From: Halanaerobium saccharolyticum
GTDB lineage: Bacteria; Bacillota; Halanaerobiia; Halanaerobiales; Halanaerobiaceae
Length of the DNA stretch: 59,571 nt
Assembly (NCBI RefSeq): GCF_004362045.1
Contig: NZ_SNWX01000017.1
Coordinates: 1-59,571, forward strand
Direction of reading: 5' to 3'
The notes beneath the pieces were generated by a model. The model had not been told where the DNA came from and made no database searches. It saw nothing but the letters and a program-made list of their open reading frames with translations. Made by a program: the position numbers and the translations under genes. Positions 1 to 42,981 of the stretch are shown here, one piece after another. Numbering within the stretch: the stretch's first letter is position 1; each line of letters begins with the position of its first letter.

Positions 1-972
1 ATAATAACTCACAACCTTGATGAGAAGGAGCAGTTGTTAAGTCCCCAGAAGAATTACAATTTGCTCACTAAAAACAATAAAGATGCTAAAGTGGACCTTA
101 AAGTAGCCAAGGAGCTTGCGAAGAAGGAACAAACCTCTTTTATTTTTTCTAGTGAGATGGATCATATTTATAAGGGTAATAAAGCCTTTAGCGAATTTGC
201 TGATATTATAATGGAGATTAAACAGTATGCTCGAATGAACCTGTTTGTGATCAGAAATTCTCGTTCAGGTATGATCAATGCCAATCTAATTATACCTTTC
301 TGTTTTCAGCTTAGTGATTCAGAGAGAATAGAAGGTGGAGATCTGGCAATAGCTCTGTCTGAGCCGACAACAGTTCCTGAGCGGGTCCTCTCTACTGTCA
401 AAAATGTTATCGAGAACTTAAACATTGTCTTAAAAGAGATAATACCAGAGCTAACAATTAAAATTAAAGAGTATGGAGAAGAATTGGATGAGAACGGTGA
501 TCCAGTTATTAAAATAGAGCTGCTGGCAGAAAGAGGAGATATTAAGATTCCTTTGAGATATGAATCAGATGGTATTAAAAAGATCATATCTATCTTGAGT
601 GCAATGATTGCTATGTATAATAAGCCTGGTATTTGTCTTGCAGTGGATGAACTTGATGCCGGTATATTTGAATACCTTTTAGGTGAAATTCTGGAGATCA
701 TTCAGGATAGAGCTAAGGGGCAGTTGGTCTTTACTTCTCATAACCTAAGACCGCTGGAGAAACTGAATAAAGAGTCACTTATTTTTACAACTACTAATCC
801 TCAGAATCGATATATTAGATTCACCAATGTTAAGGAAACCAATAATCTAAGAAGCTTCTATTATCGTGGAATTAAGTTAGGTGGACAGGACGAGGAAGTT
901 TATGAGAGAACAAATGAATACAAAATAGCCAGAGCTTTTAGGGCTGCTGGTAGAGTTGATGCTGATGACTAG
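1..972 (+). CDS. AAA-type ATPase, 5'-truncated (probable defence ATPase)
   Basis: The frame is open to the left edge, so this is the C-terminal part of a larger protein; the first 11 visible codons precede an internal TTG and are also coding. It keeps a Walker B-like segment (CLAVDELDAG) and a downstream H-loop-like segment (FTSHNLRPLE), the arrangement of ABC/SMC-like AAA ATPases of the AAA15/OLD type. The Walker A part must lie upstream. The stop overlaps the start region of the next gene, which encodes a TOPRIM-like protein, so the two are probably translationally coupled and work together. AAA15 plus TOPRIM pairs are known in anti-phage systems such as PARIS and AbiL; membership of a named family cannot be settled from this fragment. 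Confidence 0.75.
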   Translation: MITHNLDEKEQLLSPQKNYNLLTKNNKDAKVDLKVAKELAKKEQTSFIFSSEMDHIYKGNKAFSEFADIIMEIKQYARMNLFVIRNSRSGMINANLIIPFCFQLSDSERIEGGDLAIALSEPTTVPERVLSTVKNVIENLNIVLKEIIPELTIKIKEYGEELDENGDPVIKIELLAERGDIKIPLRYESDGIKKIISILSAMIAMYNKPGICLAVDELDAGIFEYLLGEILEIIQDRAKGQLVFTSHNLRPLEKLNKESLIFTTTNPQNRYIRFTNVKETNNLRSFYYRGIKLGGQDEEVYERTNEYKIARAFRAAGRVDADD

Positions 973-1642
973 AAAATTAATTCTATTCTTAGTAGAAGGT
1001 ATAACGGAGGAAATATCTTTTGGTCTTATTTTTTCTGAGATATTTGAGGATAAAGAGATTGAATTTCAAATTGCTCGTGGAGATATAACTACCAGGAATG
1101 GAGTTAATTCTCGTAATGTGATAGAAGTAATCAATGAAGAAGTATTATCTTTTTTGGACAAAGAACATTATAATAAAGGGGATATTTTAGAAATTATTCA
1201 TTTGCTGGACACTGACGGAGCATATATCAGTGAAAATTTGATCGAAAAGCATGATAAGGATAAGATTTACTATTATGGTGATAAGTTATGTACCAGACAT
1301 CCTGAAAACACAAAGAAAAGAAATAATAAAAAAAGCAGCATCATGGATAGACTGAGTAGGCATTCTAAAATAAATGGTATTCCATATAACGCTTACTACT
1401 TATCCTGTAATTTAGAACATGTGCTTCACAATGATGCAAATATTGATGATAATCTAAAAGTAGAAAAAGCTGAAGAGTTTAGTGATAGCTATTTTGAAAA
1501 GAAATTTGAGTTTTTGGATTTTATTAGAACTAATAGTTTTGCTGTCGAAGGTGAATATGAAGAAACTTGGGAGTTTATTAAGCAGGGAAATAACTCCTTA
1601 AACAGATATAGCAATTTGTACCTTGTTTTTGAAAATATCTAG
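965..1642 (+). CDS. TOPRIM-like protein paired with AAA ATPase
   Basis: The N-terminus has a hydrophobic strand followed by VEGITEE, and about 75 residues later LLDTDG. Glu after a first strand followed by an acidic DxDG pair is the metal-binding layout of TOPRIM nuclease or RloB/DUF4435-like proteins. A later YYLSCNLEHVLH segment is not one I can assign. Candidate starts are TTG 956, ATG 959 and ATG 965; none has a strong Shine-Dalgarno site, and I chose 965 because it gives an N-terminus directly before the first beta strand. Overlap with the ATPase stop suggests coupled translation. Likely role: nuclease or effector half of a two-gene defence system. This is inferred from motif and context only. 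Confidence 0.6.
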   Translation: MTRKLILFLVEGITEEISFGLIFSEIFEDKEIEFQIARGDITTRNGVNSRNVIEVINEEVLSFLDKEHYNKGDILEIIHLLDTDGAYISENLIEKHDKDKIYYYGDKLCTRHPENTKKRNNKKSSIMDRLSRHSKINGIPYNAYYLSCNLEHVLHNDANIDDNLKVEKAEEFSDSYFEKKFEFLDFIRTNSFAVEGEYEETWEFIKQGNNSLNRYSNLYLVFENI

Positions 1643-1776
1643 CATTTTTAATGGCTTATTTTTCTATTAGCAATCTCAAAAATTGAACAAAATTTCTAGC
1701 GGGACCACGTCTTAATTATGAATTTCAGATCGACGTTCGACGCCCCACCCCCTAGAGCATAACTGAATACTTAAAG
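1643..1776. other. Non-coding gap with a GC-rich patch
   Basis: No gene is seen. The stretch is AT-rich except for about 1717-1755, which holds a small inverted repeat (TCGACGTTCGA) followed by CGCCCCACCCCC. The composition change is abrupt. It could be a recombination scar, a protein-binding site or part of an origin; nothing in the sequence decides. Confidence 0.4.
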
Positions 1777-1836
1777 AAACTGAGCTGTCTGGATAGTCTC
1801 TTAATTGAGGCTTTCCTGGCAGCTCTTTTTTTATGC
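1777..1836 (+). terminator. Hairpin followed by T-tract upstream of a small gene
   Basis: GAGCTGTCTGGA pairs imperfectly with TCCTGGCAGCTC across an AT-rich loop and is followed by seven T residues. It has the form of an intrinsic terminator. It sits before a strong Shine-Dalgarno site and a 40-codon gene, an arrangement repeated before other small genes in this block. Confidence 0.6.
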
Positions 1837-1912
1837 CTAAATTTAAGTTAAGGAGGTGAGTGTAGATAAGGGAGTGGGCTTAGTCCAAAATGATGAAAAG
1901 GAGGTGAATCAG

Positions 1913-2035
1913 ATGGCTTCTAATACACTTGTTATCTTATTACTTGGTGCTTTAGCCTGGCAGAGTTTGTTCAGTGGAAATATTCTGCTGGCTTTGTTCT
2001 TTATTCTCTTTGATCTTTATCTGATATCTGAGTAA
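1913..2035 (+). CDS. Small hydrophobic membrane peptide (40 aa)
   Basis: An excellent Shine-Dalgarno site (AAGGAGGTGA) lies just before the ATG, and the 40-codon frame ends in a clean stop. The product is almost entirely hydrophobic from residue 6 to 38, with two runs separated by QSLFSGN, so it is probably a one- or two-pass membrane peptide. Similar peptides occur in phage and integrative elements as holin-like or conjugation accessory proteins, but no family is recognised. It starts a series of small genes that each have their own hairpin leader. Function unknown. Confidence 0.55.
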   Translation: MASNTLVILLLGALAWQSLFSGNILLALFFILFDLYLISE

Positions 2036-2087
2036 ATGCTGTTTAAGTTGAAAGTCAAAATAAAACTAAAATACGGAGGTAATAATT

Positions 2088-2510
2088 ATGTTTAAAAATG
2101 AAAACAATGTTGAGACTGTTTTAAGACTAAGAGAAATGCTGGTTAGAGCAATGATGGCAGAGAATGATGTAATGCAGGAGCTGGTCCTAAATAAGCTGGA
2201 TGAGCTGGGGCTTAAGAGAAAAGATGAGCTCAAATATGCTGAGAAGATTATTGCTTCTAAGAGTGGTGACAATGCCTTTAAGAAGCTTGCTCAGACAGCT
2301 GAGAATGGCGTTAAAAAGGCAGCTGGACTTGCATCTACTGGAACTAGGAATGTTGCTAAAGTCACTGGGGTGGCTGCATCAAAGGTCGATAGAGCTGCCC
2401 TGAAGGCAATAGAGAAGTCGGTTATCGCTGCCAATTCTACCAGACTTAAATCAGAGAGTGTTTTCTCAGGACTGAAAGATGCATTCATGGAAGGTTGGAA
2501 TAATGCTTAG
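2088..2510 (+). CDS. Hypothetical protein (140 aa), alpha-helical
   Basis: The start is supported by an ACGGAGG site eight bases upstream. The protein is predicted to be largely helical and charged: an N-terminal half rich in Glu, Arg and Leu, then an Ala/Lys/Val-rich stretch (residues 70-120) of amphipathic helix character. There is no signal peptide or clear membrane segment. I do not recognise the family. It lies between two hairpin leaders in the small-gene block of the element and is followed closely by a 57-residue protein. A structural, DNA-associated or virion-like role is possible, but that is a guess. Confidence 0.6.
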   Translation: MFKNENNVETVLRLREMLVRAMMAENDVMQELVLNKLDELGLKRKDELKYAEKIIASKSGDNAFKKLAQTAENGVKKAAGLASTGTRNVAKVTGVAASKVDRAALKAIEKSVIAANSTRLKSESVFSGLKDAFMEGWNNA

Positions 2511-2521
2511 GATTAAACTCA

Positions 2522-2560
2522 GGGGACTGTCAGTGAGAGCTGATGGTCTCTTTTTTTATT
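2522..2560 (+). terminator. Hairpin and T-tract between two small genes
   Basis: GGACTGTCAG and CTGATGGTCT form a stem (with G-T pairs) around a short purine loop, followed by seven T residues. The next gene's ribosome binding site begins a few bases later, so this could be a terminator-like attenuator rather than a plain operon end. Confidence 0.6.
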
Positions 2561-2574
2561 TGGAGGTGAAAATT

Positions 2575-2748
2575 ATGCCGGTTAATGGTGTGCCGAGTGA
2601 TGAATGGAGAGTAAAGAGAGCTTTAGGACCTTATGCTGAGCCAATGGATGAGGATGAGCTGGAAAGAGCAACAAGACTGCTGCAGGAAAAGAAGAAAAGA
2701 GCTGCAGTTTTAAGTAGTGATGATCAGGAATTTAAGATGCCCTTTTAA
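2575..2748 (+). CDS. Hypothetical small acidic/basic protein (57 aa)
   Basis: The frame is open further upstream, but the strong site GGAGGTGA places the start at this ATG; the upstream extension would run back through the hairpin leader. The product has a Pro/Gly-rich N-terminus (VNGVPSDEWRVKRALGPYAEP) and then a Glu/Lys/Arg helix. No signal peptide, membrane segment or metal motif is visible. The gene directly precedes radC with almost no gap, so the two are probably co-transcribed. I do not recognise the family. Confidence 0.55.
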   Translation: MPVNGVPSDEWRVKRALGPYAEPMDEDELERATRLLQEKKKRAAVLSSDDQEFKMPF

Positions 2749-2781
2749 ATGAATACTAAAAACATAAAGGAGATGAGAGTA

Positions 2782-3237
2782 ATGGTAAATATTCAGAAGT
2801 TTAGTTTAAGAATCGTTAAGGAGTCAGGTGGAAGGTATGACATTGATAAGTATGTGAGGAACCCATTTCAGGCAAGAGATCTCTTTGTAGAAGTGGTTGA
2901 ACTGGACAGGAGAGCAGAAGAAGTATTTGCTATCGCTACCCTTGACGTTAAAAACAAAGTAACAGGGGTATTTGAGGTTTCTACAGGTACGTTGACCTCA
3001 AGCCTAGTTACTCCCAGAGAGGTCTTTAAACGTGCAATACTGCAGAATGCAGCGGGTATAGTTTTAGCTCACAATCACCCTTCTGGGGTGGCGGGTGCAA
3101 GCAGTGATGATATCTCAATTACTAAAAAGCTGCAGAAGGCTGGCAAGATAATGGGAATTAATGTTGTGGACCATATAATAATCGGCAGCAGAGATAACTT
3201 TATCAGTATGCAGGAAGAGAATTTGATGAAAGACTGA
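2782..3237 (+). CDS. radC: RadC-family JAB/MPN domain protein
   Basis: The central sequence AHNHPSG, followed by SSDD and later DHIIIG, is the JAMM/MPN+ zinc-metalloprotease signature (H-x-H ... S ... D) found in RadC. The length (151 residues) fits the short, MPN-only RadC forms common on plasmids, phages and genomic islands; full chromosomal RadC proteins are over 200 residues and carry an N-terminal helix-hairpin-helix region, absent here. I chose ATG 2782 because AAAGGAG lies at good distance; ATG 2749 and 2773 are in frame but poorly placed. RadC's biochemical role is not established. Island copies are often found near recombination genes, as with recT here. Confidence 0.85.
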   Translation: MVNIQKFSLRIVKESGGRYDIDKYVRNPFQARDLFVEVVELDRRAEEVFAIATLDVKNKVTGVFEVSTGTLTSSLVTPREVFKRAILQNAAGIVLAHNHPSGVAGASSDDISITKKLQKAGKIMGINVVDHIIIGSRDNFISMQEENLMKD

Positions 3238-3266
3238 ATCAATAAAAATTAATAATAGTTAATTAA

Positions 3267-3290
3267 CCTGGCCGGCGCCGGGCTTTTTTT
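3267..3290 (+). terminator. GC-rich intrinsic terminator after radC
   Basis: A six-pair stem CCTGGC/GCCGGG with loop CGGC is followed by C and seven T residues. It is GC-rich in a very AT-rich region. A strong ribosome binding site for the zinc-ribbon peptide follows within about 25 bases. Confidence 0.8.
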
Positions 3291-3323
3291 ATGTCTAAAA
3301 AGCAGAGAAAGGAGGTGATTAAG

Positions 3324-3452
3324 ATGTATGTAAAGCACTGTCCTGAGTGTAAGAAGAAGTCCTACAGCTCCTGTAAGAAGGGTGAATGGAACTGCCCCCA
3401 CTGTGATCATGATCTAAGTGATGAAGAAGCTCAAAGACCAGAAGAAGACTAA
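3324..3452 (+). CDS. Zinc-ribbon peptide (42 aa)
   Basis: The perfect site AAAGGAGGTGATT precedes the ATG. The product has four cysteines in zinc-ribbon spacing: CPEC near the N-terminus and CPHC about 15 residues later, with one more Cys between them, then an acidic tail. Such peptides usually bind one zinc and act in protein-DNA or protein-protein contacts. It sits between two hairpin leaders, directly before recT. Specific function unknown. Confidence 0.6.
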   Translation: MYVKHCPECKKKSYSSCKKGEWNCPHCDHDLSDEEAQRPEED

Positions 3453-3461
3453 ATTATAATG

Positions 3462-3488
3462 GGAGGCCTGGATTAAATCTGGGTCTCC
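3462..3488 (+). promoter_or_regulatory. Hairpin before recT
   Basis: An 11-pair stem (GGAGGCCTGGA against TCTGGGTCTCC, with several G-T pairs) around loop TTAAA lies just before the recT ribosome binding site. The T-tract after it is weak (TTAAATT), so it is a poor terminator. It may affect mRNA stability or translation, or be a relative of the neighbouring leader hairpins. Confidence 0.5.
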
Positions 3489-3512
3489 TTAAATTAAGAG
3501 GAGGAATAAAAA

Positions 3513-4406
3513 ATGAGTGCAAATAGTAAAGTTGTTGATATTAACAGAAAGAAAAAAGAACTGATTACTTTTACTGAAGAGGAGTTAGAAACCCTGAGAC
3601 GAACTGTTGCCAGAGATGCAACCAGTGATGAGTTTAAGATGTTTATCTATCTGGCTAAAAACTATGGACTTGATCCTTTCAATAAGGAAATATTTTTCTG
3701 GAAGAAAGACGGCAAGCCAACAATTATGACTTCCAGGGATGGTTATCTAAAGATAGCTGATAGGCATCCCCAGTATGATGGGCTAGTTTCAGATGTAGTT
3801 AGAGAAAATGATAAGTTTAGACGAAAAGAAACTGGAATTAATCATCAATATGGGACCAACCGCGGACAGATCGTCGGTAGTTACGCTTTAGTTTATAGAA
3901 AGGACAGAAGCTATCCCGTTTATGTCTTTGCTCCCTTTGAAGAATACAGGTCAGATACTAAGGTCTGGAAGCAGTATCCTTCTGCTATGATTCTTAAAGT
4001 AGCTGAATCAATGGCTTTAAAGAGAGCTTTCAGTGTTTCTGGTCTTGTTTCCAGGGAAGAAATGGCTGTACAGCAGCAGAGTGATTATAACTTTGATGAG
4101 ATTCCATTTAGCCAGGTACAGGGCAAGAAAAATAAAGGTAAGACTCAGAAAGATGAAACTTTAAAAAACGATCAAGTTAACTCTCTAACTGAAAGAGAGC
4201 GTGCTATCAAAGAAATAGTTGGTAGTGATCCCAAGCTGAAAGAAGATCTCTATAATTATCTCAGACATGTAAAAAGAGAAAAAGGTATAGACAGCAGCAA
4301 AAAGATATCGATCAACAGCTTAAGCAAGGATCAGTTTGATCAGTTGAAATCTATCTTAAATACATTCAGCAGGTTAAGTGCTCAGGAAAGGAAGGAAATC
4401 TCATGA
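3513..4406 (+). CDS. bet: RecT/Bet-family single-strand annealing protein
   Basis: The N-terminal two thirds match phage recombination protein Bet: FTEEELETLRRTVARDATSDEF, then LAKNYGLDPFNKEIFFWK, SRDGYLKIAD and the basic MALKRAF segment. These annealases bind single-stranded DNA and pair complementary strands during phage or ICE recombination. Residues 205 to 297 are a charged, linker-like tail that may contact host SSB. The usual partner exonuclease (YqaJ/lambda Exo type) and SSB gene are not next to it. The start follows GAGGAGG. The stop overlaps the ATG of a LysM protein (ATGA), so the two are translationally coupled, an unusual partnership. Confidence 0.88.
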   Translation: MSANSKVVDINRKKKELITFTEEELETLRRTVARDATSDEFKMFIYLAKNYGLDPFNKEIFFWKKDGKPTIMTSRDGYLKIADRHPQYDGLVSDVVRENDKFRRKETGINHQYGTNRGQIVGSYALVYRKDRSYPVYVFAPFEEYRSDTKVWKQYPSAMILKVAESMALKRAFSVSGLVSREEMAVQQQSDYNFDEIPFSQVQGKKNKGKTQKDETLKNDQVNSLTERERAIKEIVGSDPKLKEDLYNYLRHVKREKGIDSSKKISINSLSKDQFDQLKSILNTFSRLSAQERKEIS

Positions 4407-4669
4407 ATAAACTAACCATATCCGCTGTATTGATGGCAATACTGCTTCTGACAGCAGCAATTTTAGCTCAGACAGGTCCAGATGATATTATTGATAGTTA
4501 CAGCTGGAATGAGGTTTATGTGGTAAAGCGAGGTGATACCCTCTGGGAGATAGCAGAAGAGATTAACTCTGACCTTGACCCGCGGCTGATGGTAGCAGCC
4601 ATTAAAAAGGTCAATGAGATTGAGACAATGATCAGAGTTAATCAGAAGATTGTGATTCCAGAAAAGTAG
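4403..4669 (+). CDS. Membrane-anchored LysM protein, YneA-like layout
   Basis: An N-terminal hydrophobic segment (residues 8-22, ILLLTAAILA core) is followed by a LysM domain over about residues 38-86: VYVVKRGDTLWEIAEEI and a closing NQKIVIPEK. LysM binds peptidoglycan, so the domain should be outside the membrane. At 88 residues with one membrane segment plus one LysM, it resembles the layout of YneA, the SOS-induced cell-division inhibitor of Bacillus, though that protein is normally next to lexA. Here it overlaps recT by four bases, so it is made whenever the annealase is. I see no LexA-type box upstream. It could instead be a wall-binding accessory of conjugation or lysis. Confidence 0.7.
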   Translation: MNKLTISAVLMAILLLTAAILAQTGPDDIIDSYSWNEVYVVKRGDTLWEIAEEINSDLDPRLMVAAIKKVNEIETMIRVNQKIVIPEK

Positions 4670-5146
4670 ACTGAGAAAGGGTTAAAGCTTTCAGAAATCT
4701 TTTCTGGTTTAAAACTATGATTTAATAATATCACTGGAGCGACTAATCTTCAAAAATAATTCTGCAGTCTTCATTGTGAATAAAGGTAAATCATGATGGA
4801 GGCTGCTTATATTCTAATCTAGCCTATATCCCTTTAAATGCTTGTTTTGAAGGTGTTTATCTGTTAATATACAAACAGTCAGATAAGGCAAAAATAGACG
4901 TATATGGCTCTCTGAGACCTTTTAAGAGTGGCTATTCCAGTGTGTAATGCATGTGTAAGATAATTTAAATATAGTTGTTTATATCGCTCTTTTTCTACAA
5001 AATACGACAATAATAACTGCTGCAGCAATAAAGGAAAATTAAAGAATTTATTGAAGTATAAATAGTAATAGGTAAAATATTTTCTTGCTGTTGACAATAC
5101 GGTGTCAGAGTAGTGAGCTACAATAAATTAAAGGGGATGAAAAATA
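4670..5146. other. 477-base intergenic stretch
   Basis: There is no convincing gene on either strand. A 55-codon open stretch (4780-4947) has no start codon. A TTGACA at 5091 and a TACAAT at 5119 lie upstream of the secreted-protein gene but are 22 bases apart, too far for a standard sigma-A promoter. The gap separates the recT block from the restriction block and may mark a module boundary. Confidence 0.4.
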
Positions 5147-5587
5147 ATGAGAAGAAAACTGGAATTAAGTCTTGCTTTAATATTTGTGTTGGTCTTCACT
5201 TTTTCGATTCAGGCTGCTGGACCAGAAGATCTATTTCTTGATTCTGCAGCTGCTCAAGAGGTTATAAAGGAGCAGGCAACAGAAGACTGGGAAGATGATT
5301 TTGAAATGGTTAAATACCAGATTGATAACCAGACTGCAGCCTATAACTGGCTTATAAAAGTAGAGGATCATATTGACTTATTGGAACTGGCTAAGGAAAA
5401 ATGGGATACCGATTATGAAATGATTAAGTACGAATATGAAAACCAGGTAGCTGCCTATAACTGGGTTCAATCTCAAGACGAACATCCAGAAATTATGGCT
5501 GCTGCAAAAGAAAAATGGGGCCTTGACTATGAAATGGTCAAGTATGAATATGAAAACCAGGTAGAAGCTTATGAAAGCATTAATTAA
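5147..5587 (+). CDS. Secreted protein with three 38-residue repeats
   Basis: A signal peptide is clear: MRRKLELS, a hydrophobic core to about residue 20, and a cleavage region IQAAG. The mature part contains three copies of a unit with period exactly 38 residues, starting at W48, W86 and W124. Each unit reads W-x-x-D-Y/F-E-M-V/I-K-Y ... NQ-x-x-A-Y, and is strongly acidic and helical. The third copy is cut short near the C-terminus. Repeats 2 and 3 are nearly identical, which suggests recent duplication. I do not recognise the family. It lies just upstream of the type I restriction operon but has a 52-base gap and its own ribosome binding site, so it need not belong to it. Confidence 0.7.
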   Translation: MRRKLELSLALIFVLVFTFSIQAAGPEDLFLDSAAAQEVIKEQATEDWEDDFEMVKYQIDNQTAAYNWLIKVEDHIDLLELAKEKWDTDYEMIKYEYENQVAAYNWVQSQDEHPEIMAAAKEKWGLDYEMVKYEYENQVEAYESIN

Positions 5588-5639
5588 ACTTTATAATATA
5601 TAATAAATGAGAACTTAACTATTCTAGGAGGAACTGTAA

Positions 5640-7133
5640 ATGTCAAAGTTAACATTAGAAGAATTAGAATCACATCTCTGGGAATCAGCCAATATACTAA
5701 GAGGTAGTATTGATTCCGCAGATTATAAAAACTACATATTTGGACTATTATTTCTAAAAAGAATGAATGATGTATTTATGGAGAACAGAGAGCACATTAT
5801 TGAAGAATACGGTGAAGAAGTAGTAGATGATCCAGACTTTTACACTGAATCAAAGGTATTTATTCCTGAAAGAGCTCGCTGGTCTGCAATTAAAGAACAG
5901 ACTGAAGATATTGGAGCAGCTATCAATAAAGCCTTTGTAGTTTTAGAACAGGAAAACTCTGTTTTAGAAGGAGTGCTGACTACAGTTGATTTCAATGACA
6001 AGGATAGATTACCTGACAGTGTGTTAGAAAAATTAATCCAGCACTATACTGATTTAAAATTAGGAAATGAAAACTTAGAAGATGCTGATCTTTTAGGTAG
6101 AGCTTATGAGTACTTAATCAGACAGTTTGCTGATGATGCCGGTAAAAAAGGTGGGGAGTTCTATACTCCCCGTGAGGTGGTTCAACTATTAGTAAGAATT
6201 TTAGATCCTCAGTCTGGAGATCGAGTCTATGACCCGGCCTGCGGTTCTGGCGGGATGCTTATTTATTCAGCAGAACATATTAGAAAAGAAGATCAGGATA
6301 GAATGGAGAACATTTCTCTTTTTGGTCAGGAAAGAAACTTAAATACCTGGTCTATTGCTAAGATGAATATGTTTTTACATGATCTTTATGATGCTCAGAT
6401 TAAAAGAGGTGATACTTTTACAGAACCACTGTTTTTAGAAGATGGTGGTAAGCTGCAGCAGTTTGATAGAGTAATTGCCAATCCAATGTGGAATCAGAGT
6501 TATGCCAAGGGTGATATTAAGGAGTCTCAGGCATATAATAGATTTAATTATGGTTTTCCACCTAAAAACTCTGCTGACTGGGCCTGGGTTCAGCATATGC
6601 TAGCAAGTGCCAATCGTGATGGTAAGGTTGGTGTAGTCTTAGATAATGGTGTGCTTTTCCGCAGCCGTTCTGAAGGTAAGATCAGAAAGAAAATTTTGAA
6701 GGAAGATTTAATTGAAGCTGTGATTGCACTGCCTTCCAATCTGTTTTACAATACCTCGTCACCTGGTTGTATTTTAATGCTAAATAAGAATAAGCCTGCT
6801 AAAAGAAAAGATAAGGTTATTTTTATTTATGGTGAGGAAGATTATGAAGAAGGAAGCAACCAGAACTTTTTAAGAGAGAAAGACTTAGAAAAGATTTTAG
6901 ATGCCTACCACAACTTTGAAGATATAGAGAAATATTGTAGAGTTGCTGATATGGAAGAAATAGAGAGAAACGATTTTAACCTAAATGTCCCTCGCTATGT
7001 GGATACAACAGAAGAGGAAGAACCAGTGGATGTTGAAGAAGTATTAACTGAGCTTGATCAGTTGGAAAAGGAAAGAGATGAGATAGAATCAGAGATGATG
7101 GGCTATCTTAAGGAGCTTGGTTATCATGGTTAA
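5640..7133 (+). CDS. hsdM: Type I restriction-modification methyltransferase subunit
   Basis: It transfers a methyl group from S-adenosylmethionine to the N6 of adenine at the site chosen by HsdS. An N-terminal HsdM helical domain is followed by GEFYTP (172-177), then the SAM-binding motif DPACGSGG (198-205) and catalytic motif IV. Motif IV reads NPMW (281-284) where NPPF/NPPY is more usual; Asn, the first Pro and the aromatic residue are kept. Length (497 residues) is normal. The start follows an AGGAGGAACTGTAA spacer. The last codons overlap the hsdS start, typical of operons that must keep M and S in balance. Confidence 0.95.
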   Translation: MSKLTLEELESHLWESANILRGSIDSADYKNYIFGLLFLKRMNDVFMENREHIIEEYGEEVVDDPDFYTESKVFIPERARWSAIKEQTEDIGAAINKAFVVLEQENSVLEGVLTTVDFNDKDRLPDSVLEKLIQHYTDLKLGNENLEDADLLGRAYEYLIRQFADDAGKKGGEFYTPREVVQLLVRILDPQSGDRVYDPACGSGGMLIYSAEHIRKEDQDRMENISLFGQERNLNTWSIAKMNMFLHDLYDAQIKRGDTFTEPLFLEDGGKLQQFDRVIANPMWNQSYAKGDIKESQAYNRFNYGFPPKNSADWAWVQHMLASANRDGKVGVVLDNGVLFRSRSEGKIRKKILKEDLIEAVIALPSNLFYNTSSPGCILMLNKNKPAKRKDKVIFIYGEEDYEEGSNQNFLREKDLEKILDAYHNFEDIEKYCRVADMEEIERNDFNLNVPRYVDTTEEEEPVDVEEVLTELDQLEKERDEIESEMMGYLKELGYHG

Positions 7134-8397
7134 AGAGGGATACAGAAATACTTCCATTGGAGTTATTCCAGATGATTGGAAAGTTGAGCGTTTAAGTGAT
7201 GTTGGTAAAGTAACTGGAGGTAATACTCCAAGAAGGAGTACAGATGAGTATTGGGGAGGAGATATTCCCTGGCTTACCCCTTCCCAATTGACTGGGAAAT
7301 TGATTAATGAGATTAGTGAAACTGATGAATATATTACAGAAAAAGGATTTGAAAATAGTTCTGTTAAATTATTACCTCCTGGTACAGTAATTATGAGTAG
7401 CCGTGCTACTATAGGTGAAACAGTTATTAATAAGGTTCCTATGACAACAAATCAGGGATTTGCTAATATAATTTGCGATGAAAATAAAGTTTATAATTAC
7501 TACTTATTATATTTATTACGTTATATTACTCCACGTTTGGAGGCTTTAGCAGGAGGAAGTACTTTTTTGGAGATTAGTAGGACTAATGTTAGAAGTGTAA
7601 ATATTCCTGTTCCTTCTCTACTTGAACAGAAAAAAATAGCTTCAATCCTATCATCAGTAGATAAATCAATAGAAAAAACTAGTGAAATAATTGAGGAAAC
7701 AAAAGAACTGAAAAAAGGATTAATGCAGGAGCTACTTACTAAAGGGATTGGACATAGTGAGTTTAAGGATAGTCAGTTTGGTGAGATTCCTAAGAGTTGG
7801 GAAATTAAAGTGATGAGTTATGCAGCTAAAATTAATCCCAGATATAAAATACCAGAAAAGGAAAAGTATTTATTTTTAGAAATGGATTCAGTTAACGAAC
7901 ATTCTCCTGAAGTAGATGGTTATGAAAGCAGAGAAAAAAGTAGATGTACAAATGTTAAATTTAAAGAAGGTGACGTATTATTTGCTAGAATTACCCCAAG
8001 TACTGAAAATGGTAAAACAGCTTTGATTGAAAATCTTGAAGAGGAAGTTGCTTTTGGATCTACAGAATTAATTGTATTATCACCAAAAAAAGATTTAATA
8101 ACTTCAGATTATATTTATTATCTTTTAAAATGGAGTAAAGTTAGAAATTTAGCTATCTCAATGATGGAAGGTTCTACAGGAAGGCAGCGTGTTCCAAGAG
8201 AAGTTTTTGATGGTGCAATAAAAATACCACTTCCTCAACTAGAAGAACAAAAGAAAATAGCATCAATCCTAACATCAGTAGATGCTAAGATACAGAAAGA
8301 AGAAGAATATAAAGCAAAACTGGAGCGACTTAAAAAAGGTTTAATGCAGAAGCTATTAACAGGAGAGATTAGAGTAAATACAGATATGGAGGTTTAG
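7126..8397 (+). CDS. hsdS: Type I restriction-modification specificity subunit
   Basis: HsdS recognises the bipartite DNA site and docks HsdM and HsdR. Two target recognition domains are visible, each opening with a GxIPxxW-type motif (SIGVIPDDWKVERL near residue 10; FGEIPKSWEIKV near 215) and each followed by a conserved coiled coil: LEQKKIASILSSVDKSIEK and LEEQKKIASILTSVDAKIQK. I start at ATG 7126 because AAGGAG lies 10 bases upstream; the in-frame TTG 7117 is too close to it. The gene overlaps the hsdM stop by eight bases. The two coiled coils are near-identical at DNA level, so domain exchange by homologous recombination is possible. Confidence 0.95.
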   Translation: MVKEGYRNTSIGVIPDDWKVERLSDVGKVTGGNTPRRSTDEYWGGDIPWLTPSQLTGKLINEISETDEYITEKGFENSSVKLLPPGTVIMSSRATIGETVINKVPMTTNQGFANIICDENKVYNYYLLYLLRYITPRLEALAGGSTFLEISRTNVRSVNIPVPSLLEQKKIASILSSVDKSIEKTSEIIEETKELKKGLMQELLTKGIGHSEFKDSQFGEIPKSWEIKVMSYAAKINPRYKIPEKEKYLFLEMDSVNEHSPEVDGYESREKSRCTNVKFKEGDVLFARITPSTENGKTALIENLEEEVAFGSTELIVLSPKKDLITSDYIYYLLKWSKVRNLAISMMEGSTGRQRVPREVFDGAIKIPLPQLEEQKKIASILTSVDAKIQKEEEYKAKLERLKKGLMQKLLTGEIRVNTDMEV

Positions 8398-8400
8398 AAA

Positions 8401-11400
8401 ATGACTGGAAATTGGGATGAGTATAATCAATCAGAAAAACCTGCTTTAGATTTATTGGATACTTTAGGCTATAAAGTCTATGATCAGCTGAATAAAGATT
8501 TCGTAGAGCTGCCGGCAAGAGAATCAGAACACCAGGTGATTTTAATTGAGGAGCTTAAAAGTTCACTTAAAAGAATCAATCCCTGGATCAATGAGAATAA
8601 CTTGAATAAGGCTGTTAACGAGATCAGACCAGCCCGTCTAAAAGCTAACTCCTTGATGGCAGCCAATGAGATCATCTATGATAAGCTAATTAATCATATC
8701 AGTTTACAGCAGGATATAGGTCATGGGAAGAAAAATCAGACTGTTAAGTACATAGATTATGAGAATCTTGATAATAACTCTTTTATAGCAATCAACCAAT
8801 TTCGAGTCAAAGGAAAAGATCCTATTAAACCTGACATAATACTGTTTGTTAATGGTTTACCTCTTGCTGTAATAGAATGCAAAAATAATACAACCTGTGA
8901 TGATCCAGAAGAAAATGCGATAAAACAATTAAGAAGATATCAAAACATTAGAGATGATTATCAGGAAGGTGCAGAAGAACTATTTTACCCCAACCAATTG
9001 CTTGTTGCAGCCTGGGGTGATTCAGCTTCTTCAGCTGCTGTAGGTGCTCCAGCACAGGCTTATAAAGGCTGGAAGGACCCTTATCCCTATACTAAAGACT
9101 CTTTGGCAGAACTACTGGGGAAAGAGCCGACAGGACAGGATATACTTCTTTTCTCACTTTTCAAAAAGAATAGGTTTTTAGATATTATCAGGAACTTTAC
9201 TGTTTTTGAAGATAAGGGTAATGCTAAAATTAAAATGGCCTGCCGCTACCAGCAGTACAGAGCTGTGCAGAAAGCAGTAGAAAGAATAAAGAATGCTGAG
9301 AGTTTAGAAGATAGAAACGGAACTGTCTGGCATACTCAGGGCTCAGGTAAGTCTTTAACCATGCTCTTTTTAGCCCTTAAACTGAGAAGGATGAAGGATA
9401 TTGGCAATCCTACAATGTTGATTGTAACAGATAGAGTTGACCTTGATGAACAGATAAGTGGAACTTTTAAAAAGTGTGGCTTCCCTAATCCAGAAAGAGC
9501 CGGCAGTGTAAAAGACTTAAAAGAGCTTTTATCCTCAGAAGCGGGCAGAACTATTATGACCACTATCCATAAGTTTCAGGAATATGAAAACGAAAAATAT
9601 CCTGTTTTAACTGAAAGAAAGAATGTATTTGTAATGGCTGATGAAGCACACAGAACTCAGTTTAAAGATTTAGCCTCTAATATGAGGAGAGCTTTACCAA
9701 ATGCAGCTTACATAGGTTTTACAGGAACACCAATTGATAAAGAATCAAGAAGCACCTTAAGAACCTTCGGTGATTATATTGATACTTACACTATAGAAGA
9801 ATCAGTTGCAGATAATGCTACACTGCCGATTAAATATGAGAGTAGGCTGGCCGAGTTACATGTAGAGGATAGAACTCTAGATGAAGTCTTTGATCAAACC
9901 TTCCACAGATATTCAGATGAAGAAAAACAGAAGATAAAAGAAAAATACGCTACTGAAAATGATATAGCTGAAGCAAGTTCCAGGATTAAAACTATTGCCC
10001 TGGATATCATTAAACATTATACGGAAAAGATTGCCCCTTTTAAGGCTCAAATAGTGGCCGTAAGCAGACAGGCAGCAGTTAGGTATAAAGAGGCGATTGA
10101 TGAGTTAGATGGTCCAGAAGCGGCTGTATTAATCTCTGGTGGCCATAATGATGAGGGCTTGCTTAAAAAATACAGTGTTGATAATGATCAGAAATCTAGA
10201 ATAGTTGAGAGGTTTAAGAATCCTCACTCTTCACTTAAAATAATCATCGTTTGTGATATGCTCTTGACTGGTTTTGATGCTCCAGTTGAGCAGGTTATGT
10301 ATTTGGATAAGTCTCTGAAAGAACATAACTTGCTGCAGGCTATAGCCCGAGTTAACAGAGTTTATCCTGAGAAGAATTATGGTCTGGTAGTAGATTATTA
10401 TGGAGTCTTTGATAACCTTAAAAAAGCACTGGCTATCTTTAATCCTTCTGATGTGGAAAACGCTGTAACTCCAATTGAAGATGAGAAACCAAGACTGGAA
10501 GCCAATCACAGAGAGGTAATGAAATATTTTAGAAATACAGATATGAATGACCTGGAAGCCTGTATTGAGCTCTTTGAAGATGAAGAGAAGAGAAATGACT
10601 TCAAAAATGACTTTAAGGATTTTGCTAAGAGTATGGATATCATCATGCCTCACCCGATAGCTGATCCTTACAGGGGTGATTTATATAAGCTGAGTAAAAT
10701 TCATACAGCAGTTAGAAATAGGTATCGTGATGACAGTATTGATATCAAAGGTGTGGGAGAAAAGGTTAAAAAACTGATCGATGATCATATCAGAGCAAGC
10801 AGTGTCAGAGTCTTGCATGAGCCAGTATCTATACTTGATGAGAAAGAATTTGAAGAAACTCTAGATGACTTAAAATCTGATAAGGCTAAAGCCAGTGAGA
10901 TGGAGCATGCGATAAAGAAAGAAATTAATGTACAGATGGAAGAAAACCCTGTCTATTATAAAAAACTAAGTGAGCGACTGGAAGAGATCATCGAAAAGAG
11001 AAAAAATAATCAGATGAGTCTTTTAGAACAGATTGGTGAGATGAAGGATATTATTAATGATATGAGAACAGTCCAGTCAAAGGCAGAAAAACTGGGATTA
11101 AACAAGAAAGAGTTTGCCCTCTATGAGCTTCTTTTAAATGAGAGAGAAAAAGAAGAAAAGGGCAAAGTTGCAGAAGAGCCTGGTGAATATACTGCAGGTG
11201 AAGGTAGTAACGAGCCTTATGTAAACAAAACTGTCAAGGAAGTTACTCAGAGTATCTTTAATGACTTAAGTGAATACACTAAGATTGATCTCTGGCGGCA
11301 GAAGACTGAAGTGCTGCAGAAAATGCGAAAAACAACCAAGGTTCATTTGATCAAATATGACGAGTTCAAGCAGAAATATGAGAGTTTAACCAACAAGATA

Positions 11401-11433
11401 ATTAAGCTCTCTCAGAATATATTTATGTTTTAA
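8401..11433 (+). CDS. hsdR: Type I restriction endonuclease subunit
   Basis: HsdR translocates DNA using ATP and cuts it at a distance from the unmethylated site. The N-terminal PD-(D/E)XK nuclease shows PDIILFVNG followed by VIECKN (about residues 143-161). The SF2 helicase motor has Walker A GSGKS near 313, a DEAH box near 413 (ADEAHRTQ), TGTP after it, and a QAIARVNR motif VI. Full length at 1010 residues with no frameshift, so restriction activity is plausible. The start ATG is three bases after the hsdS stop. The C-terminal part is rich in Glu/Lys helices and probably contacts the methylase core. Confidence 0.95.
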   Translation: MTGNWDEYNQSEKPALDLLDTLGYKVYDQLNKDFVELPARESEHQVILIEELKSSLKRINPWINENNLNKAVNEIRPARLKANSLMAANEIIYDKLINHISLQQDIGHGKKNQTVKYIDYENLDNNSFIAINQFRVKGKDPIKPDIILFVNGLPLAVIECKNNTTCDDPEENAIKQLRRYQNIRDDYQEGAEELFYPNQLLVAAWGDSASSAAVGAPAQAYKGWKDPYPYTKDSLAELLGKEPTGQDILLFSLFKKNRFLDIIRNFTVFEDKGNAKIKMACRYQQYRAVQKAVERIKNAESLEDRNGTVWHTQGSGKSLTMLFLALKLRRMKDIGNPTMLIVTDRVDLDEQISGTFKKCGFPNPERAGSVKDLKELLSSEAGRTIMTTIHKFQEYENEKYPVLTERKNVFVMADEAHRTQFKDLASNMRRALPNAAYIGFTGTPIDKESRSTLRTFGDYIDTYTIEESVADNATLPIKYESRLAELHVEDRTLDEVFDQTFHRYSDEEKQKIKEKYATENDIAEASSRIKTIALDIIKHYTEKIAPFKAQIVAVSRQAAVRYKEAIDELDGPEAAVLISGGHNDEGLLKKYSVDNDQKSRIVERFKNPHSSLKIIIVCDMLLTGFDAPVEQVMYLDKSLKEHNLLQAIARVNRVYPEKNYGLVVDYYGVFDNLKKALAIFNPSDVENAVTPIEDEKPRLEANHREVMKYFRNTDMNDLEACIELFEDEEKRNDFKNDFKDFAKSMDIIMPHPIADPYRGDLYKLSKIHTAVRNRYRDDSIDIKGVGEKVKKLIDDHIRASSVRVLHEPVSILDEKEFEETLDDLKSDKAKASEMEHAIKKEINVQMEENPVYYKKLSERLEEIIEKRKNNQMSLLEQIGEMKDIINDMRTVQSKAEKLGLNKKEFALYELLLNEREKEEKGKVAEEPGEYTAGEGSNEPYVNKTVKEVTQSIFNDLSEYTKIDLWRQKTEVLQKMRKTTKVHLIKYDEFKQKYESLTNKIIKLSQNIFMF

Positions 11434-14192: not shown

Positions 14193-14214
14193 TTTAAAGG
14201 GTGGATGATACTTG

Positions 14215-17849: not shown

Positions 17850-19271
17850 CTATGCTGCAACAGTAGCCGGCATATATTCCTGATCATTGTAGAAAAGTTC
17901 ATGCTTGGCCTGATAGTATATATCTTTGGTTATGATGTCGCTATTAAGTTTCTCTGCTATTTCTAGAATCTTATACAGCAGCTGACCTGTTAGTTGTTCT
18001 ACCAGTGAGTAGAGATTGGAATCTTCCATAACCATTCTAGTTATTCGGAAGTCCTTCGAATAATATCCTTTACCTTCGAACCTACTTTCCCAGTCTGCTT
18101 CAACAGAATTACTAAATACATATTGGTCTACTAGTCGTTGTAATTCAGGAGTAATTACCTCCAGTGGCTGCTTTAGTAAGTCATTACTTCTCAAAAGTAT
18201 TTTTCTGTTTTTAGTTCTAGGATCTTTTCTGGTTTCACTAATTTCTTCGCAGAGATAATTAGACAACTTGGTTGCTTTTGCCTTTAAATTATCTCTTTTA
18301 CTGATGTGTAGACCTGGTCTACTAATCGAATTAAGAGAGCTAATATGAGCTATTCCGTGACCCCACTTATTCTGGAGTTTTGACTGCTCCAGATACTTTA
18401 GATTAGACAGCATGTGAAAGTGTGGTCTACCGTTTTCCTGGAATTCTAAAACTGCTATGTATTTGAAGTCACCTTCATAAGCTTCTGATAAATTCTTCAG
18501 ATTCTCAATGAATTTACTGAAAGCCGAATAGGCATTTTCGATATTATGCGGAGACTTACCAGATAGAAGAGAGTTGATTCTTGAAGCTAGTTCTCTTTTA
18601 ATAGCTTGATTATGAGCTCTGACACTTTTAAATGTTCTTTCATCTTTTACAAAAGACTCTTCTATTTTGGCGATCATAGATGAAGCCTGTTCGATTAAGA
18701 TGTTTATAATTTTTTTACGTAGAGTCTTTTCTTCCTCACTGTTATTTAAGTATCTTCTATCTTTCTCCTTTTTATACTTCAGGTTGGTCTTACCTTTAAG
18801 AAGCTGCAATTCACTTTCACTCAACTGATCAGCAAGGTAGAGTTCATTTTTATCTTTATCGCTTCTTTTTGAAGAAAATAGGCTGTAGAAGTCTACATCT
18901 CCCATAGTTACTGTGGTAAAAGTATTCATGTCTTCAATATTAGCAATGGTCAATTTCCAGGTCTTTTTTTTCAGTTGATTGATATTTGAAGCTATTCTTT
19001 CTTCTGGAGTTGGAGTATAGGTACTTTTACTTCTTGATGGTTTGTTATCATTTGTCCTAGGCTTCCATTTATTTTCCTTTTCTCCGCCCCTATATATTTC
19101 ATCTTCATAACTTATTTCATCGAGAATATTACCGTATAGATCTAGCTTTCTCGAGTACCATACTCCTTTAATATCCCTTTCGATAGAGTTTAATGTTGCT
19201 ACATTTCTGCCTTCCGCCTTATCCTCATTCTTTTTCATGGTAGTTCTGAGATTTTGAGCTGTCACTGTCAT
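17850..19271 (-). CDS. rep: HUH-type rolling-circle replication protein
   Basis: The sequence YIAVLEFQENGRPHFHMLSN contains the HUH metal-binding motif (His284-Phe-His286), preceded by a hydrophobic strand, and is followed by WGHG and, at Tyr339, KLSNYLCEE, which would be the nucleophile tyrosine. This is the order of Rep proteins of the rolling-circle replication-associated group: they nick one strand at the origin and remain bound through the tyrosine. The first 200 residues are charged and helical and not assigned. Start ATG follows CGGAGGTAATAATA. Transcription is opposite to the integrase. An integrative element with Rep can copy its excised circle; an origin is expected nearby. Confidence 0.85.
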   Translation of the reverse strand: MTVTAQNLRTTMKKNEDKAEGRNVATLNSIERDIKGVWYSRKLDLYGNILDEISYEDEIYRGGEKENKWKPRTNDNKPSRSKSTYTPTPEERIASNINQLKKKTWKLTIANIEDMNTFTTVTMGDVDFYSLFSSKRSDKDKNELYLADQLSESELQLLKGKTNLKYKKEKDRRYLNNSEEEKTLRKKIINILIEQASSMIAKIEESFVKDERTFKSVRAHNQAIKRELASRINSLLSGKSPHNIENAYSAFSKFIENLKNLSEAYEGDFKYIAVLEFQENGRPHFHMLSNLKYLEQSKLQNKWGHGIAHISSLNSISRPGLHISKRDNLKAKATKLSNYLCEEISETRKDPRTKNRKILLRSNDLLKQPLEVITPELQRLVDQYVFSNSVEADWESRFEGKGYYSKDFRITRMVMEDSNLYSLVEQLTGQLLYKILEIAEKLNSDIITKDIYYQAKHELFYNDQEYMPATVAA

Positions 19272-20272: not shown

Positions 20273-21013
20273 GTGAAAAAAGATAAAGTGAAATTAATGA
20301 ATTTAGTAAGTAGAGCAATTGGTGATAAATCAGTCACGAAGTTTGCTAAAGAAGCAGACATACACAGATCTTATTTATCTAAACTCAAAAACGGGTCGCT
20401 TGAGTTTGATCCTAAGCCAGATATTTTAGAAAAAATAGCCGAGAATAATGATAAAGTTCGTTATATTGAATTAATGGTAGCCGCAGGTTATCTGGATGAG
20501 AAGTATCTTTTAGTTATGGATAAGGATGACGAGGGGCAATATGAGGAAAAAAAAGATACTCAAGGAGCAAAAGGGTTACTTTCAACTTATCTTGAGCAGG
20601 TAGAAAAGAAGAACCCTAGAGAAATGGTTACAAGTTACAATTATAATAATGAAGCTTTTTGGGATGAGAAGCAAGAATGTGTTAAAGAAGACTATTTCAC
20701 TTTTCCAGAAGGCTATGTTACAGATTCCTCTTATGCTTTAAAGATGACAAACAATAAATTTAAGGATTGGGGAATTATAAGAGATGATTACATTCTAATT
20801 AGACCCATAAATGATGAGCCTGAGAATGGCTCCACAATATTATTGATTATCAGAAAAGGTGGTGGTTGCAACAGAACAATTAAAAGATACTACATTATTA
20901 ATAAAGATAAGGTGAGATTAGAACCAGATGTTGAGAACTATGGCGAAATTGATAAATCAGAAATTGAGGTTAAAGGATTAGTAGTTTTTGTAGGAAGACA
21001 ATATATAAAATAA
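20273..21013 (+). CDS. Phage-type repressor, HTH plus S24 peptidase-like domain
   Basis: The N-terminal domain has a helix-turn-helix (residues 21-41, VTKFAKEADIHRSYLSKLKNG). The C-terminal half resembles the S24/LexA self-cleaving domain: a serine near residue 152 (TDSSYALKM), DDYILIRP, and Lys204 (TIKRYYI) at the position of the catalytic lysine. Such repressors (CI or ImmR-like) keep elements quiescent and are inactivated by RecA during DNA damage. The GTG start follows GGAGGTGAGAGAAA. It is the first gene of a two-gene operon with the integrase, so the repressor and integrase are co-transcribed. Whether it cleaves itself is not proven; the usual Ala-Gly cleavage site is not obvious. Confidence 0.8.
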   Translation: MKKDKVKLMNLVSRAIGDKSVTKFAKEADIHRSYLSKLKNGSLEFDPKPDILEKIAENNDKVRYIELMVAAGYLDEKYLLVMDKDDEGQYEEKKDTQGAKGLLSTYLEQVEKKNPREMVTSYNYNNEAFWDEKQECVKEDYFTFPEGYVTDSSYALKMTNNKFKDWGIIRDDYILIRPINDEPENGSTILLIIRKGGGCNRTIKRYYIINKDKVRLEPDVENYGEIDKSEIEVKGLVVFVGRQYIK

Positions 21014-21027
21014 TAGGAGGAATTAAT

Positions 21028-22191
21028 ATGGGAAGCTTTAAACAATTGAAATCAGGGAATTGGCAGGCGCAGGTGTATCTAGGCAAGGATCCAGAAACAG
21101 GAAAGGCAATGAGAGATTATAAGACATTTACTCGTAAGAGAGATGCTAAGAAATGGGCTAGAAAAATGGAATTACAGGCTGATCAGGGAGTTGTAGTACA
21201 GACGGACATGACAGTAAAGGATTTATTATTGAAGTGGTTTGAGGAGTACGCGGTTGTTCAGACAGAAAAGACTACTCATGATAGATATGAGATCATACTT
21301 AAAACTCATTTGATTCCTGCCCTCGGACATATCAAGTTAAAAGAACTGAGTCCGGCTCACATTCGAGTATATTTGCAGAAGAAGCGGAAAGATGGAAGAA
21401 AGGACGGTAAAGAAGGCGGGTTATCAGAAGCAACTTTATTAAAGCACTATAAGAAGCTGAAGCAAGCTTTAAGCTTTGCGGTTAGAAATAGATACATTGC
21501 AGCTAATCCGGCTGATCCTGTTGAAGCACCGAAAATTGATCGGAGAAGGAATAATACCATTGTTGCTTTAACAAAAGAAGAAATAAGTAAACTGTTAGAG
21601 GTTGCTAAAGAGGATGATCCGCTATTACATGACTTTATCTATCTTGCGGTCCATACAGGTATGAGAAAAAGTGAGCTTTTAGGCCTGGAATGGGATAATG
21701 TTGATTTTGAGAATAAAAAGATTCGGGTGAGACAGGCTCTGGTAGGTGAAAAGGGTAATGGCTCTGTTCTAAGAGAAAGTACTAAAACGGCTAATAGTAA
21801 CAGGAATATCGATATTACTGACGAAATAGTAGAAGTACTGAAGAAAAGAAAAGAGAAACAGGAGGAGTTCAAAGAATTCCTGGGAGATAATTATCACGAT
21901 GAATATAATCTGGTGTTCTGCAAAGAAGATGGTGAAAAATATTATCCAGACAGATATAATGTTAGATATGCTGAATTAAGAGATAAAGCTGGATTAGATA
22001 AAGAAAAAACGCTCCATACACTTCGCCATACACACGCTTCGATTTTGCTGCAGTTAAATGAACATCCTAAGATTGTTCAGGAGAGATTGGGTCATGCCTC
22101 AATCACTCAAACAATGGATACTTACTCTCATTTAATTCCAACTTTACAGGCTGAAGCTGCTGAAAAAGCTTCTAAATTTCTGGATGCTTGA
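21028..22191 (+). CDS. int: Tyrosine integrase of the element
   Basis: A full-length phage/ICE integrase: an N-terminal arm-binding AP2-like domain (MGSFKQLKSGNWQAQVYLG), a SAM-like core-binding domain (about 60-170) and a catalytic domain with Arg near 213 (HTGMRKSE), HTLRHTH near 330 and LGHASITQTMDTYSH with the tyrosine near 366. Length 387 residues matches the Tn916/ICEBs1-type integrases. The AGGAGGAATTAAT site precedes the start, 14 bases after the repressor. Its end lies about 110 bases from the 3' end of a tRNA-Arg gene, the classic arrangement for an integrase next to its attachment site. Confidence 0.95.
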   Translation: MGSFKQLKSGNWQAQVYLGKDPETGKAMRDYKTFTRKRDAKKWARKMELQADQGVVVQTDMTVKDLLLKWFEEYAVVQTEKTTHDRYEIILKTHLIPALGHIKLKELSPAHIRVYLQKKRKDGRKDGKEGGLSEATLLKHYKKLKQALSFAVRNRYIAANPADPVEAPKIDRRRNNTIVALTKEEISKLLEVAKEDDPLLHDFIYLAVHTGMRKSELLGLEWDNVDFENKKIRVRQALVGEKGNGSVLRESTKTANSNRNIDITDEIVEVLKKRKEKQEEFKEFLGDNYHDEYNLVFCKEDGEKYYPDRYNVRYAELRDKAGLDKEKTLHTLRHTHASILLQLNEHPKIVQERLGHASITQTMDTYSHLIPTLQAEAAEKASKFLDA

Positions 22192-22299: not shown

Positions 22300-22374
22300 T
22301 GGTGCCCCCAGCAGGAATCGAACCTGCGCTCAAGGCTTCGGAGGCCTTTGCTCTATCCACTGAGCTACGGGGGC
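22300..22374 (-). tRNA. tRNA-Arg (anticodon CCG)
   Basis: A full cloverleaf with encoded CCA can be drawn: acceptor GCCCCCG/TGGGGGC, D stem GCTC/GAGC, anticodon stem AAGGC/GCCTT with loop CTCCGAA, T stem GCAGG/CCTGC with TTCGATT. Anticodon CCG reads CGG arginine codons. Its 3' end faces the integrase, so it is the probable integration site. The second copy of the attachment sequence must lie to the left of this window. Confidence 0.95.
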
Positions 22375-42882: not shown

Positions 42883-42981
42883 GGGAGTGGCTGTGTCCAT
42901 GGTGGACATCCTGGACTTCAAATCCAACGGCAGGCAGGCGGACCTGTCTGTGGTGGGTTCGATTCCCACACATTCCCGCCA
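42883..42981 (+). tRNA. selC: tRNA-Sec (anticodon UCA)
   Basis: The long tRNA has an acceptor stem GGGAGTGG/ACATTCCC (8 pairs, the last a G-A mismatch), a six-pair D stem (GTGTCC/GGACAT), anticodon loop CTTCAAA with TCA, a long variable arm (GGCAGG/CCTGTC) and T stem GTGGG/CCCAC with TTCGATT, then G and CCA. These are the hallmarks of bacterial tRNA-Sec. It lies 106 bases after selB. Confidence 0.93.

Follow-up and report, generated by a model that had tools for sequence, protein, structure and literature searches.

In Bacillus subtilis YneA, the membrane helix takes the protein to the divisome by way of FtsW TM7, and glycan binding by the LysM domain is required for blocking septal synthesis; the available text of that work assigns FtsW binding to membrane residues K5, E6, F10, V11 and F14, and glycan binding to LysM residues D46, T47 and I81 (PMC13396833). 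Phage lambda provides the other point of reference: its kil gene overlaps gam and cIII in the PL operon, which also holds exo and bet, and the accessible portion of the same account states that P22 kil is required for efficient growth without anti-RecBCD activity (PMC3961180). Why phages and other elements should arrest division, and why the genes that do so should lie by recombination genes, has been a question since lambda kil, and a LysM counterpart recurring beside several annealase families makes it testable. A search of titles and the opening lines of abstracts, outside of which most subscription papers fell, found no pairing of an annealase with YneA or a LysM protein, and neither LysM nor YneA appears in the main text of a paper that surveyed the gene neighbourhoods of annealases in phages of Firmicutes (PMC8093625).

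The window, by which we mean the whole analysed stretch of 59,571 nucleotides of Halanaerobium saccharolyticum DNA, contains such a pair. Its features in the vicinity, with the basis of each assignment in brackets, are the following.

2088..2510, + strand: ORF of 140 aa without a Pfam family, conserved 5' (Pfam, relatives)
2479..2748, + strand: ORF of 89 aa without a family, kept in the module (Pfam, relatives)
2749..3237, + strand: radC-like JAB-domain gene, adjoining recT in related loci (Pfam RadC, 6.8e-39)
3267..3282, + strand: terminator-like hairpin, 3' of radC and 5' of the Cys-rich ORF (consensus scan only)
3291..3452, + strand: Cys-rich, zinc-ribbon-like ORF of 53 aa, 5' of recT and kept in relatives (weak Pfam and NCBIfam matches only)
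3513..4406, + strand: recT, Bet/RecT-family single-strand annealing protein, 297 aa (Pfam, NCBIfam, PHROG 2780)
4388..4396, + strand: AAGGAAGGA, ribosome-binding-site-like, 6 bases 5' of the lysM start (read from the sequence)
4403..4406, + strand: ATGA, overlap of the recT stop and the lysM start (sequence)
4403..4669, + strand: lysM, YneA-like protein with a membrane helix and a LysM domain, 88 aa (Pfam, NCBIfam, AlphaFold2 model)
5640..11433, + strand: type I restriction-modification genes hsdM, hsdS and hsdR, 3' of the pair (PADLOC for hsdM and hsdR)

By its profile matches in Pfam (PF03837, E 1.1e-36, 126.7 bits against a cut-off of 24), NCBIfam (Bet TIGR01913, 84.2 bits, above the cut-off of 76.95) and PHROGs, the recT product is a Bet/RecT-family annealase. 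The initial annotation had described the recT stop as overlapping the start of an 88-residue ORF, which is correct (the bases ATGA are common to both), and had pointed out that neither an exonuclease nor an SSB gene is adjacent. This also holds: the neighbours are radC, the Cys-rich ORF of 53 aa and an ORF of 146 aa that has no family, and a PDDEXK_4 nuclease-like gene is found at 14212, about 10 kb from the pair. The hairpin at 3267-3282 would group the Cys-rich ORF, recT and lysM into one unit, and we infer that recT and lysM are co-expressed; promoter-like sites show no excess in a consensus scan (12, with 11.8 expected). Internal repeats around 'EKWxxDYEMxKYEYENQVAAYNW' and a signal-like start mark the 146-aa ORF (5147-5587); it has no Pfam or NCBIfam family at 0.01 and one weak PHROG match of unknown function.

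Conservation of the pair, on which the initial annotation had made its proposal depend, is borne out, although not at every recT locus. Among 101 relatives, recT has 26 matches in 17 genomes; a LysM gene lies downstream at 14 of these matches and was not found in the 1.5 kb inspected at the other 12. Nine of the 14 LysM-bearing loci are arranged as in the window. Four others, one of them in the window's own genome (G000), have an ORF of 84-95 aa between recT and lysM and are referred to as C14-type, and in one genome (G012) the two genes are separated by a 12-base gap. The copy on contig C14 (L003, 4247-7329) gives G000 a second recT-lysM-radC module; upstream of it is a gene that looks ArdC-like by eye, and the region holds tyrosine recombinase-like genes. 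A LysM gene in another relative (G005, contig C37) has radC but not recT on the same 8.7-kb piece.

The junction itself is kept in all nine window-type loci, as ATGA in eight and GTGA in one, and AAGGAAGGA is present upstream of lysM in every one of them. The dN/dS values for these loci are 0.125 for recT (n = 8) and 0.365 for lysM (n = 9), and two C14-type pairs give 0.05 and 0.12. Both genes thus seem to be maintained at the protein level, with the tighter constraint on recT, and both look to be under purifying selection; together with the 9/9 conservation, this suggests that the junction is more than chance. The L046/L196 locus (metagenome assembly, isolate M55B147) has a recT with two in-frame stops next to an open lysM frame; the L196 recT was excluded from the recT dN/dS value only.

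The 88-residue protein has one membrane helix and a LysM domain (PF01476, residues 39-86, E 2.6e-8 in Pfam), the build ascribed to it at the outset. An AlphaFold2 model (mean pLDDT 83.4, pTM 0.66) has a helix at residues 3-21, a short helix at 26-32 and a strand-helix-helix-strand fold at 37-85; searching the PDB with it gave LysM proteins as top matches, all weak (best E 0.025, none at 0.001). The best NCBIfam match is YneA (NF010723, E 1.6e-12, residues 3-87 of 88), with a score of 47.2 bits that falls short of the curated cut-off of 60. Small size, an N-terminal membrane helix and a C-terminal LysM domain are those of YneA; a lexA neighbour is lacking, as is a LexA box in window positions 1-5700. 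Because it is below the cut-off and lacks the LexA link, we keep the window protein outside the YneA family and, judging from sequence, call it YneA-like. The LysM motif GDTLW is invariant in 10/10 aligned rows.

Host lexA in G000 is accompanied by a resolvase-like gene and by a YneA-like gene in divergent orientation (names by eye), and the product of this lexA-linked YneA-like gene scores 65.9 bits. Across 14 family genomes, the listed NF010723 matches with open frames shorter than 150 aa number 29, namely 14 lexA-linked (a LexA motif nearby), 14 recT-linked and one radC-linked protein; every other match listed has a frame of at least 303 aa. Their scores are 48-68 bits for the lexA-linked and 34-48 for the recT-linked proteins, and five of the latter lie at or below 42.6 bits, the level of the best long LysM protein listed, so that the NF010723 score alone cannot separate all classes. 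A LysM-domain signature composed after the sequences had been viewed is found in 13/13 element domains and 24/26 lexA-linked ones, against 0/25 other LysM domains; only one of three Alicyclobacillus domains and two of five viral domains have it, and so do three of four small LysM domains of unchecked context, which were counted separately. YneA is also the top NCBIfam match for each of the eight further TM-LysM proteins, mobile or viral, that were scanned, and two of these pass the cut-off (62.1 and 60.6 bits). The proposed likeness to YneA is thus borne out by the top NCBIfam match and by a common LysM signature, the latter defined post hoc. That the element's lysM is a recent copy of host yneA was considered and rejected: in a LysM-domain tree with 53 usable columns and many open forks, all but one of the 13 element sequences group in a clade of their own (support 100/98), apart from the clade of the lexA-linked YneA proteins of the genus (97/90); the thirteenth, from G012, falls outside the element clade with weak support.

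The recT-lysM pair sits on an element integrated at a tRNA-Arg(CCG) gene of G000, the relevant features of which are as follows.

17850..19271, - strand: G2P-type replication protein (Pfam REP_ORF2-G2P, 4.5e-12)
20273..21013, + strand: repressor-like HTH protein with a LexA-like tail (Pfam HTH_3, 3e-5; 23% identity to host LexA)
21028..22191, + strand: tyrosine integrase of the element (Pfam Phage_integrase, 9.9e-29)
22300..22374, - strand: tRNA-Arg(CCG), the integration site (ARAGORN)

An HTH_17 protein also adjoins the integrase, the repressor-like protein and the G2P protein near the tRNA. As expected of a tRNA-site integrative element, the integrase lies by the tRNA and part of the tRNA is repeated at the far end: a repeat search found a 16-17-bp piece of tRNA-Arg at the left end in six genomes (G003, G004, G008, G009, G011 and G013) and on G000 contig C51, which holds the left end of the G000 element and aligns at 99.5% with the left portion of the element in G004; it did not find this repeat in the G005 stretch. 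Two genomes (G006 and G010) lack the recT block at this site, although their flank with the tRNA and metF aligns with the window. G000 belongs with Halanaerobium: near-identical loci occur in other genomes under names such as H. saccharolyticum, H. congolense, H. kushneri and H. salsuginis. Mobility of the element is evident from sequence identities: its P-type ATPase is 99-100% identical in seven genomes and its recT 93-97% in eight, against 74-97% for metF, the chromosomal neighbour in the window, where these genomes have that gene (in G013, recT is 96% and metF, on a separate contig, 74% identical). The P-type metal ATPase, CadA-like by eye, is in the left part of the element (L121, 2008-4245, contig C51). 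A tRNA-SeC(TCA) was located by ARAGORN at 42883-42981, in the chromosomal part of the window.

The type I restriction-modification genes are exchangeable cargo, different genes standing there in L071 and L076. Within them, hsdS (7117-8397) is 36-67% identical in four relatives, beside near-identical hsdM (99%) and hsdR (95-97%), and the strong divergence of hsdS therefore points to exchange of target specificity. At the left end of the window (34-1642) is a pair consisting of an ATPase and a 228-aa protein, which is full length in L073 (4856-6944); that ATPase (472 aa) matches AbiLi in PADLOC (2.1e-30), its 228-aa partner has no PADLOC match, and the pair occurs without recT in G008.

Induction of the pair by DNA damage, which the initial annotation had brought up, finds no support in these sequences. 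A host LexA-box pattern built from the lexA-yneA intergenic stretches does not match anywhere in window positions 1-5700. The element part of the window has three LexA-like sites scoring at least 8, as compared with a mean of 3.55 in shuffled sequence; the best of them, at 19635 (score 13.0), is unconserved in 5/5 relatives, and a site of 15.0 in the G004 element and contig C51 lies, by its coordinates, within the P-type ATPase gene. Alignment of the repressor-like protein (20273..21013) with host LexA finds neither the catalytic serine nor the Ala-Gly site at the positions that we take to be those of LexA. SOS control of the element pair is accordingly rejected for now.

The pairing is not confined to the Halanaerobiales. 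A survey of 41 genomes around Alicyclobacillus contaminans (a family that we take to be the Alicyclobacillaceae) with NF010723 at E 1e-9 or better gave 35 matches in 21 genomes: 14 beside lexA, 10 abutting a recombination region, three in other phage-like early regions, three elsewhere on the chromosome and five long hydrolase-like proteins, which are included in the 35 but which we do not term YneA-like. (L314 was grouped with L305 and L306 by protein likeness, not by its neighbours; the latter two are short chromosomal LysM proteins with GDTLY in place of GDTLW, and a scan of their neighbourhoods found neither lexA nor a recombination gene adjoining.) The 10 recombination-abutting cases, whose neighbours were identified directly for a set of references and otherwise by similarity to these or by eye, comprise five with RecT (one of them RecE-RecT), one with ERF-SSB, three with a Mu Gam-like protein and a phrog_10048 protein, and one in which a phrog_3657 protein accompanies a DUF3799 nuclease. 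No function is known for either the phrog_10048 or the phrog_3657 proteins, which we regard as annealase-like from position alone. In all 10 cases there is a possible start codon for the LysM frame within the upstream gene. A recT-linked prophage protein of A. contaminans scores 62.1 bits, above the 60 required for YneA, and a sister protein encoded next to ERF-SSB scores 59.7 bits.

A LysM ORF is found at 15 of 69 recT loci (25 on viral contigs and 44 in named genomes), and all 15 are from named genomes, 12 of Halanaerobiales and three, which is every one, of Alicyclobacillus; a LysM gene was found at 0/25 of the viral-contig recT loci. Scans of IMG/VR with LysM proteins gave at least 15 different short ORFs in which a membrane-like segment accompanies LysM, and among the matches listed a recombination gene, as called by a small set of reference proteins, lies within 1.5 kb of 5/15 of these short ORFs versus 1/128 long or contig-cut LysM ORFs. 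On inspection, the TM-LysM gene of L345 has an SbcC-like gene and then a Sak4-like annealase gene after it, and that of L416 has an SSB gene about 1.5 kb away; the gene comes after a DNA polymerase in L324 and before a replication initiator in L356. L170 is cut by the contig end; in L237, where a protein of 100% identity is encoded, a DUF2800 nuclease-like gene comes next. Bacillus jumbo phage Goe21 has a LysM protein that is annotated yneA and, at 60.6 bits, is over the cut-off. The window LysM protein gave one partial match each in plasmid and in phage records, and the other LysM proteins found chiefly endolysins, lysins and LysM structural proteins among phage records. Two loci labelled phage, L243 and L245, were set aside as host DNA, lexA adjoining their LysM gene.

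The recT-lysM pairing is real and wider than first observed, with a putative division block as its likeliest reading. To the specific proposal that the element-borne LysM protein acts like YneA but independently of LexA, blocking septal wall synthesis, and is produced along with RecT, we give somewhat better than an even chance. The membrane helix would bring the protein to the divisome, where FtsW is its putative target, and the LysM domain would bind nascent septal glycan, as B. subtilis YneA does at FtsW. Expression of lysM within the recombination unit would take the place of LexA control, and host division would be delayed during copying, annealing and recombination of element DNA; lysM would then fill the role that kil has beside the lambda red genes. 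Elements may, that is, hold back division while they copy and recombine their own DNA, and the presumed benefit would lie there. Speaking for this reading are the YneA matches and the signature, the recurrence beside recombination genes of several families and the purifying selection. Counting against a division block are the 12/26 recT matches in relatives and the 25/25 viral recT loci without a LysM gene, the higher dN/dS of lysM (0.365, exceeding 0.125 for recT), the missed YneA cut-off and missing LexA link, a score not far above those of some long LysM proteins, and the few Alicyclobacillus and viral domains that have the signature.

The same absences, and the small ORF that intervenes in C14-type loci, would suit a hitch-hiker, that is, a small envelope protein of the kind of accessory gene that early regions gather, with no tie to annealing and no need for a division block. 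We think this unlikely: the gene recurs beside unrelated annealase families, its possible start codon lies within the upstream gene in 10/10 cases, and its LysM domain is of the YneA type rather than the tail or lysin type. Distinctly less probable is a decoy that would vie with host YneA for FtsW or glycan, letting the host divide despite an SOS response triggered by single-stranded DNA. The host does own a lexA-linked yneA, the element protein is only 28% identical to its product, and an element acting in the direction opposite to a division block is on record in ICEBs1, which, according to the available text, limits the SOS response of its host (PMC11841131); a decoy could, however, drop either the helix or the LysM domain, both of which YneA needs, and the element protein retains the two. 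Alteration of the wall or membrane against entry of rival phages and elements would accord with the type I restriction system and AbiLi-like ATPase of the element, but is very improbable, the homologues having been seen in recombination and replication regions and none beside defence genes.

The septal-inhibitor reading can be put more generally for the phages and elements of Bacillota and Halanaerobiales: their annealase and recombination cassettes would have a YneA-like TM-LysM protein as a general, hitherto undescribed partner, an effector taken over from the host SOS division checkpoint, freed from LexA and attached to the element's own recombination genes, and a counterpart of lambda Kil that acts on septal wall synthesis instead of FtsZ. 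We offer this tentatively, at a little under an even chance. If true, early-region 'LysM domain protein' genes would gain a function, and septal wall synthesis would emerge as a repeated target of mobile elements.

How far do known systems go toward this arrangement? The window protein is, like B. subtilis YneA, small, with one N-terminal helix and one LysM domain, and matches over its full length; it differs in falling below the cut-off, in having neither a lexA neighbour nor a LexA box and in the overlap of its gene with recT. Goe21 yneA encodes a phage-borne member of the YneA family but has no annotated annealase within the 6-kb stretch inspected. PhiNM1 Gp11 is a small early phage protein that blocks Gram-positive division and disturbs FtsW; it differs in having 53 residues and two predicted membrane helices and in binding MurG and DivIC, a LysM layout is not reported in the accessible part of its description, and SPO1 gp56 is, by a title in the reference list there, a protein of the same kind (PMC11237401). 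The Rac prophage of E. coli likewise has a division inhibitor, Kil (KilR). Its gene lies near recET. KilR prevents formation of FtsZ rings and has, as far as the available text goes, no significant similarity to lambda Kil (PMC3961180). Lambda Kil itself acts on FtsZ/ZipA, and the division inhibition of the window protein is putative. Nor is lambda Kil known to be a LysM protein. The likeness is one of layout, the small division-inhibitor gene overlapping gam, by the portion of that account at hand (PMC3961180), as lysM overlaps recT in the window. With its position inside a recombination unit matched in this way, lambda kil would be the best parallel for the recT-lysM arrangement.
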